A stretch of DNA of 64,000 nucleotides from Macrotis lagotis (lineage: Eukaryota; Chordata; Mammalia; Peramelemorphia; Peramelidae), in assembly GCF_037893015.1 (NCBI RefSeq), contig NC_133665.1, positions 104,871,937 to 104,935,936 of the forward strand, given 5' to 3'. This document shows, piece after piece, positions 17,431 to 62,756 of the stretch. The translations under genes and the position numbers were made by a program. Below the pieces are notes generated by a model that was not told the origin of the DNA, searched no databases, and was given only the letters and a program-made list of their open reading frames with translations. Every line of letters begins with the position of its first letter. The stretch's first letter is position 1.

Positions 17431-19639
17431 TCTAATATCCTTTTAAGAGCTCCAAATACAGGGCTTAATCCACAGTGAGTACTTTAAAATAACTGGACAA
17501 AAGTTTCATTTAGTGTTTTCTAGTGAACCCACATATACCTCCTCAATTCATTATTAGAAAAGCTTCTTTCCTGGAATACAACAACAATCATACTTTGAGG
17601 CTCAATGTAGTACTCCCAATTTATGACCTACAACTTAACTGAAACCAATTCAAAATCAACTTTTCTTCATATAGAGATGCATCAAAATCCAGTTTCATTT
17701 TAGCAAGTAATGCATTTGTTCTAACTGAATCACTTCCAACCAACCAATAAGCTATTTGTTCAAAGTGTAAGACAAAGCCCCAGACTCTGGAATTTGTGAT
17801 GGAAATAATACACTGTCATTTCTCAAACTTTACTAGAATCACTGACTCAGAAACATTTTCATTCTAAAACTACTTTGAAAAAATAAGTTTTAAAGTAAGA
17901 ATTTAAAATTGGTTTCCTAACAGTTCATTAAGTCTACCTACAATTATGCAATACTAGTTTAAATAATGAAACAGTCATTTAATCGCATGCTTATAAATCA
18001 CAATACAATCTATTTTAGAAAAGGAAAGCAGCCTCCAATGTGAAAAAGAGAAAGGAAAAATTAAATACAAGCCTAGACACTGTGAAAATACTATGAAAAG
18101 CTTAGGTCAAATATGTTCTAAGGAACAAAAAAGCTAGGTGCCCTAAATGTACACTCCTTGGCCAAGAGACAATGAAATAGAAAATCTCTGGCAAAAACAA
18201 CAACTCCCCCCTCCCCCCATCATTCAGACACATGAAGAGAACAAGGAAATGTCCAGTGTACAGCAGGGATATAAACTCTCAATTGATTTAATTTCCCAAG
18301 TTAGCAGACTTAAGGAAATTAAATCATTTGAGAGTTTGTATCGCTAGTTGTTGAGATTGACAAGCAGGAAGAATAAACTTTCTAAACCTCAAATTTCTCA
18401 TTTATCAAACCCCTGTGAGGTAGAAGTGAATGAATCAGGATGCTCCTTTGACAAATGAGCAAGATGATCACCAGAAAGATTAGAAGATTTGTTCCCTTGG
18501 GCAAGTTATCCCATTGCCTTGTAAAAAAATAAAAGATTTGTCCAGCATTGGCCATTTGCAGAATTGGAATTTGAACACAGGTCTAATTCAAAGCTCAACG
18601 TTCTGCTAGTCCATGATGCCTCTCTTATCTTTTATTTGAAATTATGCAGGAGATAGATGTTGGTATTATGCTAAAATAATCTAATACTATATTTAGAAAA
18701 CTGGAAGGGAGAGAAAGTACAGATTGTGGTTAATGCAAAGGTTGATAATTTTTACATCACCTAACCAAATCATAGCCTAAAATTTATGCAAAATTATGAC
18801 AATTCTCTCTTGGAAGTTATTGGCACGTCAACAGTTTTAAATTCAATCTAGCTGATCAATTAGGTATAATCTATAAAATTCCTGAATCATAATCCTGAAA
18901 CTTGGCAGCATCATCAATTTTTTTACGTTTAGAGAGGAATATAGCCTATGCCAGACAACAACCTGTTGTGGGATACAAAGATGAAAGTTCTTCCTGCTTA
19001 AGGTTAACGGAAATTACTATCTAATAGCTCCAGAAAATACCCAAGATAGTTTGTTGAATTTTTAAAAGGAAAAGTAATTTTTTTAATAGGCATACATACT
19101 CAAGGCATGTGAACATTCACCCAATCAACATGTTTTATATAGATTGTTGCCCTGAGCTCTTAATGTAACATTCTGAAAAACAAGTAAGTTGTTTCCATTC
19201 TGACTCCTTTTATGTCCTGACATTTTAAATGAAAGTGTAGTAGGAAATTAAGTTTCCATTATTACCAAATTCCTAAGTTCTTTCCAACTATTGCTAAAAT
19301 CCTCTTATTTCTTCCACAAAACGTAAATCGACAAGGCTTTCAGACACAGATTTAGTGACATTCTTTCTGTCCAGGAAAACATAGCACTCAGGCAAATCAT
19401 TGGAGGTCATAATAACATGTGGACAAACTAGAGTCCAGCATAAGAAAGCAATGCAGAAAGAATATACAACAAAGGCGGAAAGGAATGGGATTTCAATTTT
19501 CAGAAAATGTGGGATTTGCTTGTGATCTGCTTAATAGTGTAATTCGTACAATACTAAGTTTTTTGAAAATGAATTTTTAATTCCTTAATAGTCTTTTCCC
19601 AGATTTCTACAGAAAAGGCTGTCTGTTTTGTCGCGGCCA
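17431..19639. other. Intron sequence without recognised genes
   Basis: About 2.2 kb of AT-rich sequence leading up to the CpG island. The only repeat noticed is a 40 bp SINE 3' end remnant at 18,497-18,538 (CCATTGCCTTGTAAAAAAAT). Confidence 0.5.
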
Positions 19640-20676
19640 GCTTCCGGCTGGAGCAGCCTCCGGCCCTCGGGCCAGAGGGGAGGATGACGGGGGGAGCTCC
19701 GGTGAGTCTTCCCGGGTCGGGGCAGCAGAGCGCGGCGCCGCGGGAGCGTGCGGGGGGCGCGGGCAGGCCGCGGGCGAGTCCGACCGAAAACAAGCCACCG
19801 AGGCCCGAAATAAAAGCTGCGGAGCTCGGGGCGGATCGGGAGGCGCCTTCGGGCTGGCTCCGCCCGGCGCATCAGCCCTCGGGTCGCCGGGCCCGCGAGG
19901 CCCCAGGCCCCCGCCCCGCCCGGGCCCCGCCGCGAAGGGGCCGGGCCCGAGCCAGCGTCACGCTGACCACCGGCCGGCCGGGCCCCGGGGACGTGGGGCG
20001 GGGGAGGGGAGGGGCGGGCCGGCGCCGCGCGTGCCCGCTGCCCCCTCCCTGCGCAACCCGGGCGAGGCTCCCTCCCGGCTCCGGCTCGGGCTCGCGCCCG
20101 CCGCGGCCGCCCCGCCAGGAAGGGTCGCCCTGGGCCCGGGCGCGCCGCGCCCCGCCCCGCCCTCCGCGGCGGCCACAGCCCGGCGCCCGCGGCGCGCCCC
20201 GCCCCCTCCCCCCGGGCGCGCCCCCACGCCGGGCGGAGAACCAGGCCCGGCCCCCGCCCCCACTCCCGGGCCCGGGCCCGCGCGCGCTCCGCACGGCGGC
20301 GCGGCCAGGCGCGCGCCGGCGGGACACAGAACCCGCTCTGCGCGCGCGCGCGCACCCGCCCTCCTCCCCCTCCCCTCCCCCTCCCCTCCCTCCCCCACCG
20401 CGGAGGCCAGGCCCAGGCTGGCCGGCGCGGCCCCCCGCACCAGCGCCCCCGCGGCCGAGCCGGGGGCAGGGGCCGGGCCGCGGCGGCGCGCGGGAGGCTC
20501 GGGGGTCTCCTCGGCTGCCCGGAGCCGCCCCGCGCCCTCCGGGGCCCGGCAGCCCCGGCCCGCTCCCCCAGCGCCCTCCGCCGTTGTGTAGTGCTGTCGG
20601 TGGCGGCGCCCTCCCGGCCCGCTCGCTCGTGCCGCGGCGGCCCCGGAGCCCCCCTGGCCCGCGCCGCCGCCCTTAC

Positions 20677-20790
20677 CGTGTGCCGCCGCCGCCGCTCCGC
20701 CCACGGGCCCCTCCGTGCCGCCTCGGGCCCCTGCTCTACCGTCGCCGCTTCGAGACCGACAGGATTTTCCCCTCACAGCTCCCTGGGCGC
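20677..20790 (-). other. QRICH1: Probable non-coding exon 1 of QRICH1
   Basis: On the minus strand a strong splice donor, CACG|GTAAGG, ends an exon at 20677. Upstream are a YY1 element, a CCAAT box and a TCTCGCGAGA palindrome, placing the transcription start near 20,790. The gene identity comes from synteny: in human, QRICH1 is the next gene 3' of QARS1, on the same strand, with a non-coding first exon. No QRICH1 protein sequence was found, so all coding exons should lie beyond position 1. Exon boundaries on the 5' side are estimates. Confidence 0.6.
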
Positions 20791-20844
20791 CATCTTACAT
20801 TCAACACCGCTAGCCAATGGGCGCCTAGCTCCTCTCTCGCGAGA
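20787..20844 (-). promoter_or_regulatory. QRICH1: QRICH1 core promoter motifs
   Basis: Read on the minus strand: the palindrome TCTCGCGAGA (20835-20844), a reverse CCAAT box (20814-20818) and AAGATGGCGC (20787-20796), a YY1 site in the orientation and position usual just downstream of start sites. The order and spacing fit minus-strand transcription starting near 20,790. Factor binding is inferred. Confidence 0.6.
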
Positions 20845-22060
20845 ACGGAGGTGGCAAATCCCGCGAGAACTAGCCGGGGCCTCCCGGCCCGCCTTAAAGG
20901 GAACGCGTTCCGCTGCAGCCCCCGGGCGTCCTCGGAGGGACGCCGCGGGGGGCGAGGCTGGAGTGACCCGCCGCGACCCTCTGCCCCTGCCCGCTCTGCC
21001 TCCCCTCGGGCGGCGGACGGACGGACGGCCCCGTCCCCGCCGCCGCCGCCCCGGCAGACCCGCCCCCGGCCTCAGTTTCCCCCGCAGTCCCGGCCCCGGA
21101 GCTTGGCCCGCCCTGGGAGGTGCGGCGGCCCGGCCCAGGGGTCTCGGCCCTCTCCCCGGACCAGGCCTTCGGGGCGGCCCCCGCGGGAGGCCAGAGCCTC
21201 CGGGTGGGGGCCCCGGGCCGGGCGTGGAGGCCCCAAGGCCGGGAGCCCCGGGGAGCGGAGCCTGCGGAAGGGCTTGGACTAGGCCCGAGCGGAGGCCTGG
21301 GGGAGGGAGGACCCGGGGGCCGGCGGCTGCCCCCGATGGCCCAGACCCCGCGGGGAAAGGGCTGCCCCGCCCCGCCCTGGGGGAAGGCCGAGGTCACCCC
21401 GGAGCCGGGCCGGGGCGCGGGCCCCCAGAGGAGGGGAGGAGGCTGGGCTGCGGCCCGGCCCGGGGGCGCCCCGCTCCCCACGGCCTCCTTGGCCCGAGGC
21501 CTGGCGGGCGGCCCCCGGCCCCGAGCCGCCCCGGCCTGGGGGCTTCACCCGGGCCATCCCGGCGGGGCCCAGCCCTTCCTACCCCCTGGCTTCCCATCCT
21601 TAGGAAACTACCTCCTCCTCGGCTGCACCAGCATCCCTGCTTAAGGTGGCCCGGGGCCTCGGCCAGGCGGGGCCCTCCTGCCCTCGGGGCGGCCCAGGCT
21701 GCCCTGCCCCGAGACGGGCTTCCCCCGGGAAAGGGAGGGCCCCATCCTCCAGGGAGCGCGCCCCGGGGGCAGGGCAGGCCCCTTCCAAGCAGGGGGCCGC
21801 CGGCCCCCAGCTCCCCGCAGTCCACCTTAAACCGGGCCCTGGGTGACTTCGGTGTTTGTATACAGTGGGAAATGTGGAGGACGTTAAAGCTGCAGACACA
21901 CTCCCTGCCTTCAGACCGGGACTGCGGGGTGGGGGGGAGGGACCCCGAAGGAGGTCAGGCGGGAGCCTGCTCCCTGGAAGGGCAGAAGCCCAGGCCAGAA
22001 GGGCAGTCGGGGTCTGCGCCAGGGCCTGCCCTTGGAGCCCCAATCCTAGAGCTGCTGTCC

Positions 22061-23148: not shown

Positions 23149-42803
<19,655 letters not shown>

Positions 42804-43400
42804 GCTGGAGCCGCGCAGCTCAGGAAAGAGCGCAGGCGCCCGCGCGCCGCCGCCTCGCTCTTCCTGCCAATGGGAGGGCGCGCCGCTGTGCGTCTCCGCA
42901 GCCGGACCAATGGGCCCGCGCCTGGGGGGCGGGCGCAGGACGGCGCTGGAAGCGATTAAAGAGCCAGAAGCGGAAGAGCAGGTCGGACAGGCCGCCGTGG
43001 CTTCCGGGAACGGCGGCGTCGGGCGTCGGCGCCGCCGAGCGGCGGGGCGGGGCGTCCCTGGCTTTCCTGGCGGAAGAGAGCGACTGCTTGTTTTAGGAAT
43101 GGCGGCCTGCATTCGCCAAGAACTTGTCGGGGGACCTTACCTTCCCGGAGGCGCGCCGGGCAAAGAACGTGGGAGAAGTGGCCCGGCAGTGATCCTGGCG
43201 CTCAGCCCGCGACCCTCCTGGCTGCAGGGGCTAATACGTCCACGTGTTATCCGCGAGGGACGGGGCGGGGGAGGGGACGGTGTAACCTGGAAGTCTGCGA
43301 GTGGCTGAAAGCTGGAAAACCTTCCCGACGCGCCATTGGAAGAGATCAAACGTCAATCAGGACGACGCCCTCGGCCGCAAGCGCGGAGTGGCCACGCGCG
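42804..43400 (-). promoter_or_regulatory. QARS1: QARS1 promoter and CpG island
   Basis: GC- and CpG-rich sequence directly upstream of the QARS1 start codon. It has two CCAAT boxes of the same form (CCAATGGG) 40 bp apart at 42867-42871 and 42907-42911, an Sp1-like GGGGGGCGGGC just beyond, and several ETS-like GGAAG cores. There is no TATA box, typical of a housekeeping tRNA synthetase. The start codon lies in CAGCATGGCGGC, close to a YY1 site. High CpG content runs on to about 43,740 and back to about 42,360, where the minisatellite begins. Binding roles are inferred from motif form only. Confidence 0.75.
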
Positions 43401-43729
43401 GCTGCTTCCGGTGGGGTCAAACAGCGAGCTGAGGCTCGACCTCCGGAAATAGGGCGTCAGGGGGGCAGCGGGGGGAGGGGCGGTAAGTGGAGGGCGGAGC
43501 CAAGTTCCATGGCCGGGAAGGACCCTGTCTGCCTCAGTTCCTCCCCTGGAGAAGGGAATGCGGACCCCTGGAGTGAGGAGGACCCCGTGGGACTGAAGCT
43601 GCCTCCGCCCGCCGGTCCGTGGGGCGCTGCCTGCGTGGGAAGGCGCTCGCGTGTATGTAGGTGTGGGGCCTCTGGGTGGCGCCACAGTGCACAGACCGCC
43701 GCCCCTGAGGTGGGCAGCTCAAAGCCAGC

Positions 43730-60104: not shown

Positions 60105-61174
60105 GAGGAAGGGATGGTGATCAAGTTTATTTAGCTAAGAGAAGAAGGAGCAGATCCTTTGCAAGTATTTTGCAGAAAGACCTGGGGCCACCTCAGACAC
60201 CAGGGGAACTGATTGCTACCAGAAAAGTCACACCAGACTGGATAGTATTAAAAGTAAAAACTACAAGTAAAGATAGGGTTCCCCCTCTTATCACCAGCCC
60301 AAGCAGGGGAAGCAGCTGCCAAAGGTCCTGGGTACCCCCAGTGACATCATTTCCTGGAGGATTTGAACTGAGAGTCAGTCCTTAACCCAGGGAGTTAGGC
60401 CAAAGCCAGAAAGAACTCTGGCCTGCCCCTTGTTTTCCCCCCTCCTGTAAGGAAGAACCGTTCACCTCTTCTTCTTGGGAGGGTGCTGGTAAGGAGACCG
60501 ACACCTGTCTAGTCCCCTCTAGGACAAGCAAGCCAAGGGCAAACAGGAAGACCAGACAGGCTCCCGCTTCCTAGCTAAATCTCTGACTGGGGAAGGTGGT
60601 GACTCTCAGGCTGGTGACTCTTTCTGGGAAGGAATGGGGTAACTGAGGACCTCCATCTGGAGTTATTGCTGTGATGAGTCTCGTGTGGGGTGTTCTTTTC
60701 CCTAGCCCCGTTATTGCCTTAATGGTTGAGCAAATAGGGCCCCTCACCGTCCCCAAGAGCAGAGCACTCAGTGGTGGCTAGGGACTTTGTGACTCGGATG
60801 GAGACTGTGCTTTCTTTGGTGATGGGTGATGGGGCTGTGCTGGCAGGAATCTGAGCTTCGAGGAGGCTCTTCTCCAACTCCCGGGCAGGGTCGGGGGTGG
60901 GGGGCCCAGGGGGAGTGGGTGCTGGTGACAAGTCCCGGGCCCCCGGGCCACTCGGGGCAGGAGGACAGAGAAGGCCTCCGGCCCGTGCTGCTCTGCGGGA
61001 CTGGGTCGATGAGGGAAGCCTTCGGCCGGGGGCATCCGCCGCGGGGCAGGGGTGCCGGGCCCGGGCCCTCGGGCCTGGACCCCAGCGGGGGGGGGGGGGG
61101 GCTGCACCTGGATGAGGCTGCGGTCCAAGGCTCCCCGGCAGCCGGGGTCCGGGGCGGGCGGGGCCGCGCCTCAG
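60105..61174 (-). other. Putative 3' UTR of the GPR22-like gene
   Basis: Non-repetitive sequence between the receptor stop and the candidate polyadenylation signal. The first 300 bases stay GC-rich and include a run of G on the + strand near 61,086-61,100; the rest drops to ordinary composition. A 393-residue open frame overlapping the receptor here is a frame shadow. Confidence 0.4.
60126..60131 (-). terminator. Candidate polyadenylation signal of the GPR22-like gene
   Basis: AATAAA on the minus strand about 1.04 kb past the stop codon, giving a 3' UTR of about 1.05 kb (61,174 to about 60,105). No other canonical AATAAA was noticed in that interval. Confidence 0.5.
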
Positions 61175-62518
61175 TCAGTCCGGGGCCGGCGCGGCCGCCG
61201 GGGCCCGGGCCCGGCCTTTGCGCGCCCCGAGCCAGGAGTCGCGCACCACGGCGGCGCCGGCGGCGGGGGGCTCGGGCCGCAGGGCGCACACGGCGTGCCT
61301 CCGGGCCCGGCCCCGCAGCGCCCGGCCGAGCGGCCGGCGCGGGAAGGCGTAGAGCAGCGGGTGCAGCACCGTGGTGCCGTAGGCCGCCGCCAGGCAGCAC
61401 AGCCGCAGGCGCGCCAGCCGCTCGCTGGGGCCCAGGCACAGCAGCAGCAGGTTGCCCACGGACAAGGGCGCCCAGCAGCCCACGAAGGAGCTGACGATGA
61501 GCAGCGAGCGCCGCAGGACGCGCCGCCGCCGGGCCCGCCGGTCCCGGTGCCGCCGCACGGCCCTGCGCAGCGCCAGGATCACCGACACCGACGTCTGCAG
61601 GGCGGGCGGCGGCGGGGCCGGGGCCGGGGCCGCGGGCGGCGGGGGGCTGGGCCCGCGGGCCTCGGCCGCCCCCGGGGCGCCCCCGCCGCCGCCGCGCCCC
61701 CGGCCCCGCCGCCCGCGCCCCCGCCGGCCCCGCCGCCGCCGGCCGGCCCGCGCCCCGAGGCCCGCGCTCAGCGCGTGCAGCACGCGCGCGTAGGTCACCA
61801 GCAGCCCCACCAGCGCGGCCACGAAGGCCGGGATCTGCACCAGCAGGTGGCCCCTGCCGGCCGGCGCCCCCGGGCCCGCCGCGCCGCCGCCGCCCGCACC
61901 CACGCAGGCCACGCCCGTGCGGTTGTCGGCGCCCGCGGCCTCGTCCCACGCGCCCGGCGCCAGCTCGGCCTCCACGAAGGGCAGGGAGAAGGCGGCCAGC
62001 GACAGCAGCCAGGCGCCGGCCAGCAGCAGGAGCGCCCGCGCGGGCGTCAGGCGGCGGCGCGCCGGCCGCGCCGACATGTCGTAGCGGTCCAGGCTGACGG
62101 CCAGGACGCCGGCCGCCGTGGCCACGCCGCTGAAGGTGACGCCGGCCTCGTGGAAGCGGCAGAGCAGGCTGGTGGCGGGGCGCGGGGCGGCGGGGCGCGG
62201 GGCGCGGGGCGGCGGCGGCGGCGGCAGCAGCAGGACGGCCACGCTGAGCGGGACGCAGAGCGCGCAGATGAGCGTGTCCAGCACGTGCAGGCTGAGGGTC
62301 AGGCGGGCGCTGGCCGAGGCCCGGGGCCCGGCCCGGGCGCGGTGCAGCAGCAGGGCCGCCGCGTTGCAGCCCAGGCCCAGCGCCAGCTCCAGGAGCAGCA
62401 CGCCGGCCAGCGAGGCCCGGAAGCCCCCGGGGAAGGGGCCCGCGGCCCAGCCCGCGTCCGCCGCGGCTCCGGGTCCATCACTGCTCTCCGGCGCCGGAAG
62501 GTCCGAGGGGGTCTCCAT
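61175..62518 (-). CDS. GPR22-like orphan class A G-protein-coupled receptor
   Basis: A 447-residue seven-helix receptor in one coding exon. Helices lie near residues 36-58, 73-98, 118-147, 160-183, 224-250, 333-361 and 369-392. DRY is at 144-146; the likely disulfide joins C120 to C205; an N-glycosylation site (NRT) is at 199-201 in loop 2. Helix 6 has CWAP; helix 7 has HPLLY in place of NPxxY. Stretches match GPR22 as I recall it: LHVLD, CRFHEAG, LDRYD, HLLVQIP, TSVSVILALRRAV, YGTTVLHPLLYAF and a C-terminal DSW. GPR22 is about 433 residues. Unlike GPR22, this gene is extremely GC-rich, with Pro/Gly/Arg-rich insertions in loop 1 (99-115) and loop 3 (255-306). The start was chosen because the next upstream ATG (TTATGCTGAG) is out of frame. 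Ligand unknown; GPR22 is reported as Gi-coupled in heart and brain. It is a paralogue, not GPR22 itself. Confidence 0.88.
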   Translation of the reverse strand: METPSDLPAPESSDGPGAAADAGWAAGPFPGGFRASLAGVLLLELALGLGCNAAALLLHRARAGPRASASARLTLSLHVLDTLICALCVPLSVAVLLLPPPPPPRAPRPAAPRPATSLLCRFHEAGVTFSGVATAAGVLAVSLDRYDMSARPARRRLTPARALLLLAGAWLLSLAAFSLPFVEAELAPGAWDEAAGADNRTGVACVGAGGGGAAGPGAPAGRGHLLVQIPAFVAALVGLLVTYARVLHALSAGLGARAGRRRRGRRGRGRRGRGRGGGGGAPGAAEARGPSPPPPAAPAPAPPPPALQTSVSVILALRRAVRRHRDRRARRRRVLRRSLLIVSSFVGCWAPLSVGNLLLLCLGPSERLARLRLCCLAAAYGTTVLHPLLYAFPRRPLGRALRGRARRHAVCALRPEPPAAGAAVVRDSWLGARKGRARAPAAAPAPD

Positions 62519-62548
62519 GGGCGGGGCTCAGCATAATCCCGGAGCCGC
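62519..62548 (-). other. 5' UTR of the GPR22-like gene with a likely splice acceptor
   Basis: On the minus strand a pyrimidine tract followed by CAG ends at 62549, so an exon probably begins at 62548, 30 bases before the start codon. The mature mRNA would then have at least one upstream non-coding exon; its position was not found. A short out-of-frame upstream ATG lies in this segment. Confidence 0.45.
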
Positions 62549-62756
62549 CTGGAGGGGAGGGAGAAGGAGTGATTGCGGGCTGGAGCCCGGCCTCGCCCGC
62601 CACAGGCCTCGGGACCCTTCCGCCGATGAACTCTCGTGGGCCTCCTGTGGGCCGCGGCCGGCCAGGCAGCGAACCTGGCCGAACTGGAGGTGGCCTGTGG
62701 CCTGTGGCCTGGTCGTGGTGAGGACAGTGCTGGGAGGCCTAAAGGGCTGTCCTGGG

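Follow-up and report, generated by a model that had tools for sequence, protein, structure and literature searches.

A second GPR22-family receptor gene in the bilby, most likely a paralog of GPR22 from the early vertebrate genome doublings

The 64,000-nucleotide stretch of the bilby (Macrotis lagotis) genome analysed here (the window) contains an intact coding gene whose closest relative within the genome is GPR22 and which is located in a duplicated block matching that of GPR22. This gene is very probably a second member of the GPR22 family, GPR22L, that most likely derives together with GPR22 from the two early vertebrate genome doublings, has been kept intact in the bilby, and can be read as a Gi/o-coupled, cAMP-lowering receptor. 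The name GPR22L was found in only one paper of the literature searched, which describes it in gar, fishes, coelacanth, an amphibian, a reptile, and a marsupial as a clade without a human orthologue (Rinne et al. 2019, PMC6504862). The existence of GPR22L was thus already known, which reduces the novelty of the original prediction of a GPR22-like paralog with no counterpart known in human. The GPR22L passage of that paper gives neither a chromosomal position nor a GC content, birds and monotremes are missing from its species list, and the absence of the gene in placentals rests on this publication. At the level of listings, the literature searched did not reveal the paralogon placement, the GC shift, or the lopsided divergence of GPR22L, and the titles and abstract beginnings did not mention any GPR22 relative beside QARS1 or LAMB2.

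The coding sequence occupies 61175-62518 of the minus strand and consists of an ATG-to-stop frame of 447 codons plus stop in a single coding exon, as judged from the open reading frame, the Pfam match, the alignment to GPR22, and the GC content per codon position. The Pfam domain 7tm_1 matches residues 73-390 (E 1.2e-16, 61.5 bits compared to a curated cut-off of 30.5), and the class A motifs DRY, CWxP, and the TM7 PxxY are present at residues 144, 348, and 387, respectively, which places the protein in the class A (rhodopsin-like) GPCRs. The canonical NPxxY is replaced by HPLLY, as is also the case in GPR22. The intact 447-residue receptor that had been predicted is thereby confirmed, and its strand, which had not been stated, is the minus strand. 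The openness of the frame alone says little because stop codons are rare at 83% GC and because overlapping frames are open as well, namely a 494-codon frame on the plus strand and a second frame of 393 codons on the minus strand. The gene is instead identified as coding by its similarity to GPR22 and by the GC signature of its codon positions, which amounts to 369, 299, and 440 of the 447 first, second, and third positions (83, 67, and 98%; chi-square p 2e-34). The best 60 of 309 matches in a PDB sequence search, with E-values between 1.3e-7 and 3.1e-5, comprise opioid, nociceptin, somatostatin, and adenosine receptors and do not include a GPR22 structure. A single-sequence structure model is of poor quality (mean pLDDT 46.8), with a helix order that fits a receptor. 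Rfam at gathering thresholds gave no match within the 64-kb window.

A CpG island spanning roughly 1.6 kb (61001-62600; GC 0.77-0.94 and CpG observed/expected 0.73-1.09 in 200-base bins) surrounds the frame, whose GC content of 83% compares to 45% in the whole window. GC-rich low-complexity repeats at 61678-61767 (minus strand; repeat finder and alignment) encode the end of helix 5 and an Arg/Gly-rich stretch of intracellular loop 3. About 1.05 kb past the stop codon, at 60126-60131 on the minus strand, a candidate poly(A) hexamer AATAAA was found by eye, although a single hexamer may be due to chance. An upstream ATG frame of 18 codons plus stop (62478-62534, minus strand) overlaps the main start out of frame. 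It begins with MLSP, comparable to the MCLSP at the start of bilby GPR22, and may be left over from an old start, may act as a brake on translation, or may be due to chance.

The gene is presumably expressed. An intact frame could also belong to a gene that was silenced recently and is out of use, a scenario that we regard as improbable. It would be in line with the low-complexity repeats in the sequence that encodes loops 1 and 3 and with the upstream ATG frame, whose overlap with the main start could reduce translation. How long a frame would survive without selection was simulated with a simple neutral model of our own, in which indels made up one tenth of the changes and 400 frames were generated per setting; a drawn base may equal the old one so that the real change is below the nominal one. 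At nominal 0.005, 0.01, 0.02, and 0.03 changes per site, 60%, 32%, 10%, and 5.5% of the frames remained intact, respectively, and a very recent silencing could thus have left the frame untouched. However, at 0.05 changes per site a single frame out of 400 (0.25%) was still intact, and at 0.1 or 0.3 all frames were disrupted. If GPR22L has been silenced at all, this must therefore have happened recently. In addition, the DRY, CWxP, and PLLY motifs have been kept, which also speaks against silencing.

Searching the bilby genome with the GPR22L protein retrieved the gene itself and then GPR22 on C7 in two pieces (E 4.2e-38 and 4.5e-37, 40% and 50% identity), while the next-best match had an E-value of 5.1e-4. 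The search with bilby GPR22 resulted in 28 matches, which are GPR22 itself, GPR22L, and a further 26 with E-values of 2.1e-7 or weaker and identities of 18-32%. Two GPR22-type genes were therefore found in the genome, GPR22 and GPR22L. GPR22 is intact, encodes 433 amino acids, and is located at C7:151585889-151587187; the possibility that GPR22L is itself the GPR22 orthologue was therefore rejected. By elimination, the second gene should belong to the published GPR22L clade. The two proteins share 155 of 411 residues in a pairwise alignment and 158 of 409 (39%) in a multiple alignment, and gap-free blocks of 75, 77, 40, and 135 residues extend over the helix regions, in agreement with the long shared blocks across the helices that had been predicted. 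Compared to nine other receptors of the genome, GPR22 and GPR22L show only 16-22% identity. In a one-genome tree with these nine receptors (L044-L052; L053 and 16 matches without a locus were excluded) the two group together at 100/100 support, which assigns GPR22L to the GPR22 family. Four of the eight inner branches, all among the other receptors, lack resolution. The tree places all change after the split on GPR22L (2.13 compared to 0 on GPR22). Because of this one-sided distribution and because the abnormal composition of GPR22L violates the tree model, the divergence cannot be used to date the split.

The duplication would date to the early vertebrate doublings if the surroundings of both genes are considered. 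Two exons of QARS1 were found in the window on the same strand as GPR22L, at 34838-34969 and 28656-28760, matching residues 88-131 and 294-328 of the glutamine-tRNA ligase 4ye6, respectively, which bears out the predicted adjacency to QARS1; the first QARS1 exon is located near 43 kb as judged by eye. A minisatellite with a 51-base unit at 36791-42355, for which one row of the repeat finder lists 89.8 copies over 37772-42355, apparently lies within an early QARS1 intron between this first exon and the exon at about 35 kb. Long overlapping frames at 19588-21600 and 42500-43700, the latter containing the QARS1 start as judged by eye, suggest GC-rich islands. The former may be the promoter of a neighbouring gene, presumably QRICH1 if the human gene order applies. 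Beside the window there is a stretch reading N, and beyond it laminin-beta sequence on the minus strand like GPR22L. From its position this neighbour is probably LAMB2, given that in human QARS1 is followed by USP19 and LAMB2. USP19 was not detected here, the sequence adjoining the window consisting of N.

Laminin N-terminal domains were detected by genome profile searches at no fewer than 35 places in at least 16 loci, and SLC26 domains (Sulfate_transp) at no fewer than 29 places in at least 10 loci. As far as the places found are concerned, the stretches within 0.75 Mb of both families add up to just 1.98 Mb of the 3656 Mb (0.054%), are confined to C7 and C8, and hold GPR22 and GPR22L, respectively; this chance figure is post hoc because laminin, SLC26, and CACNA2D were selected on the basis of human gene order, as a check of a prediction and not as a blind scan, and because the radius was chosen to slightly exceed the longest distance seen, 0.71 Mb. 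With radii of 1 Mb and 2 Mb the fraction increases to 0.082% and 0.19%, still on C7 and C8 only among the places found. GPR22 is 0.61 Mb away from laminin and 0.24 Mb from SLC26, and GPR22L 0.10 Mb and 0.71 Mb, respectively. The laminin exon on C8 is closest to the two C7 exons (39/64 and 35/65 identical residues) when compared to seven other places, the other five reaching 32/68 at best. For the C8 SLC26 exon, compared to eight other places of which one covered a different part of the domain and with the C1 and C3 loci left out, the C7 members score highest (30/40, 25/39, and 26/38), with the best of these located 4.9 Mb from GPR22 and with members elsewhere being close (24/39 and 19/30). CACNA2D (VGCC_alpha2) gave 14 matches in one locus on C7 and one on C8, 11.8 and 2.3 Mb away, respectively. 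The two blocks thus share duplicated laminin-beta and SLC26 families and, more loosely, CACNA2D, as is expected for a pair from the two rounds of genome doubling (2R), with the reservation that the families were selected on the basis of human gene order. A 2R paralogon with CACNA2D among its families has been described over the human chromosomes 1, 3, 7, 12, and X (Lagman et al. 2013, PMC3826523), and LAMB and SLC26 are absent from its text. Among the papers listed by a literature search for SLC26, LAMB2, GNAI2, and CACNA2D, none uses the word paralogon.

As an alternative to the doubling, GPR22L could be a marsupial-specific, fast-evolving copy or a retrocopy of GPR22, which seems highly improbable. 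The tree with all change on the GPR22L branch and the restriction of the coding part to one exon would fit such an origin. However, the copy would have to accumulate about two changes per site and yet keep the helices and motifs, the gene is located in a block matching that of GPR22 itself, and GPR22L has been published from gar to reptile (PMC6504862). Concerning a retrocopy, a splice-acceptor-like AG at 62549-62550 follows a pyrimidine-rich run and leaves a leader of 30 nucleotides to the ATG (62519-62550 in total, minus strand, read by eye). In bilby GPR22 a comparable acceptor-like AG, also identified by eye behind a pyrimidine-rich run, is found 25 nucleotides ahead of the ATG. The similar placement suggests an intron ahead of the coding exon common to both genes, which argues against a retrocopy. 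A recent copy within marsupial GPR22 is also disfavoured by the 39% identity, compared to 78% between zebrafish and human GPR22 (PMC4204907), and by the matching blocks, with the reservation that in the tree all change falls on GPR22L; the old paralog of the original prediction is thus supported. The open overlapping frames on both strands would speak for a frame that is open by chance in GC-rich DNA, but this reading can be dismissed given the 7tm_1 match, the similarity to the GPR22 found in the genome along the whole length, and the codon-position signature.

GPR22, an orphan receptor in brain and heart, has been tied to cardiac stress and protection and to cilia (PMC11138089, PMC4204907). 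In human it is encoded at 7q22 (PMC4204907). It has been reported to couple to Galpha-i/o (PMC4204907, PMC11138089), and in one study it did not have a constitutive effect on cAMP (PMC4575141). GPR22L would act at the cell surface, coupling to Gi/o and reducing cAMP in the way reported for GPR22; this assumption is based on the end of loop 3 and the G-protein-facing part of helices 6 and 7 being best kept. The ligands of the two receptors may differ because their outer loops differ. A natural sister receptor that keeps the G-protein-facing parts and changes the outer loops helps to identify the essential residues and provides another approach to finding the ligand. If the published species list holds, GPR22 work in placentals covers the family minus one member. 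With its GC content of 83%, GPR22L can serve as a test case where genes may have been missed in birds and monotremes. A more far-reaching scenario, which we consider possible but rather doubtful, is that GPR22L is a working sister from the doubling that survives in marsupials and has been rewritten within a CpG island to extreme GC (GC3 98%, with about two changes per site and the sister having hardly moved), that part of its reported absence in birds and monotremes is an assembly artefact caused by GC, and that a true loss happened in placentals only.

Compared to GPR22, the bilby GPR22L has kept FHEA (122), DRY (144), CWAP (348), and HPLLY (386-390), as well as the TM3 cysteine 120, the loop-2 cysteine 205, and an aligned glycosylation site at 199 ahead of the latter cysteine. 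The block at the end of loop 3, TSVSVIxALRRAVxRHRxRR, starting at 309 in GPR22L, is nearly identical, and the best-kept long block extends from there through helix 7 with 60 of 135 residues identical. In contrast, GPR22L contains inserts between helices 2 and 3, 4 and 5, and 5 and 6, which are dominated by Pro, Gly, Ala, and Arg and accord with the GC-rich repeats in the DNA. Unlike bilby GPR22, with one VxPx and one AxxxQ motif, it has neither of these motifs, and the N-terminal glycosylation site is missing as well. The GC content of 83% compares to 37% in bilby GPR22; the prediction of a separate gene had been based on such differences in GC content and loop inserts. With respect to the published GPR22L clade (Rinne et al. 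2019, gar ENSLOCP00000017943; PMC6504862), the bilby gene is assigned to it by elimination.
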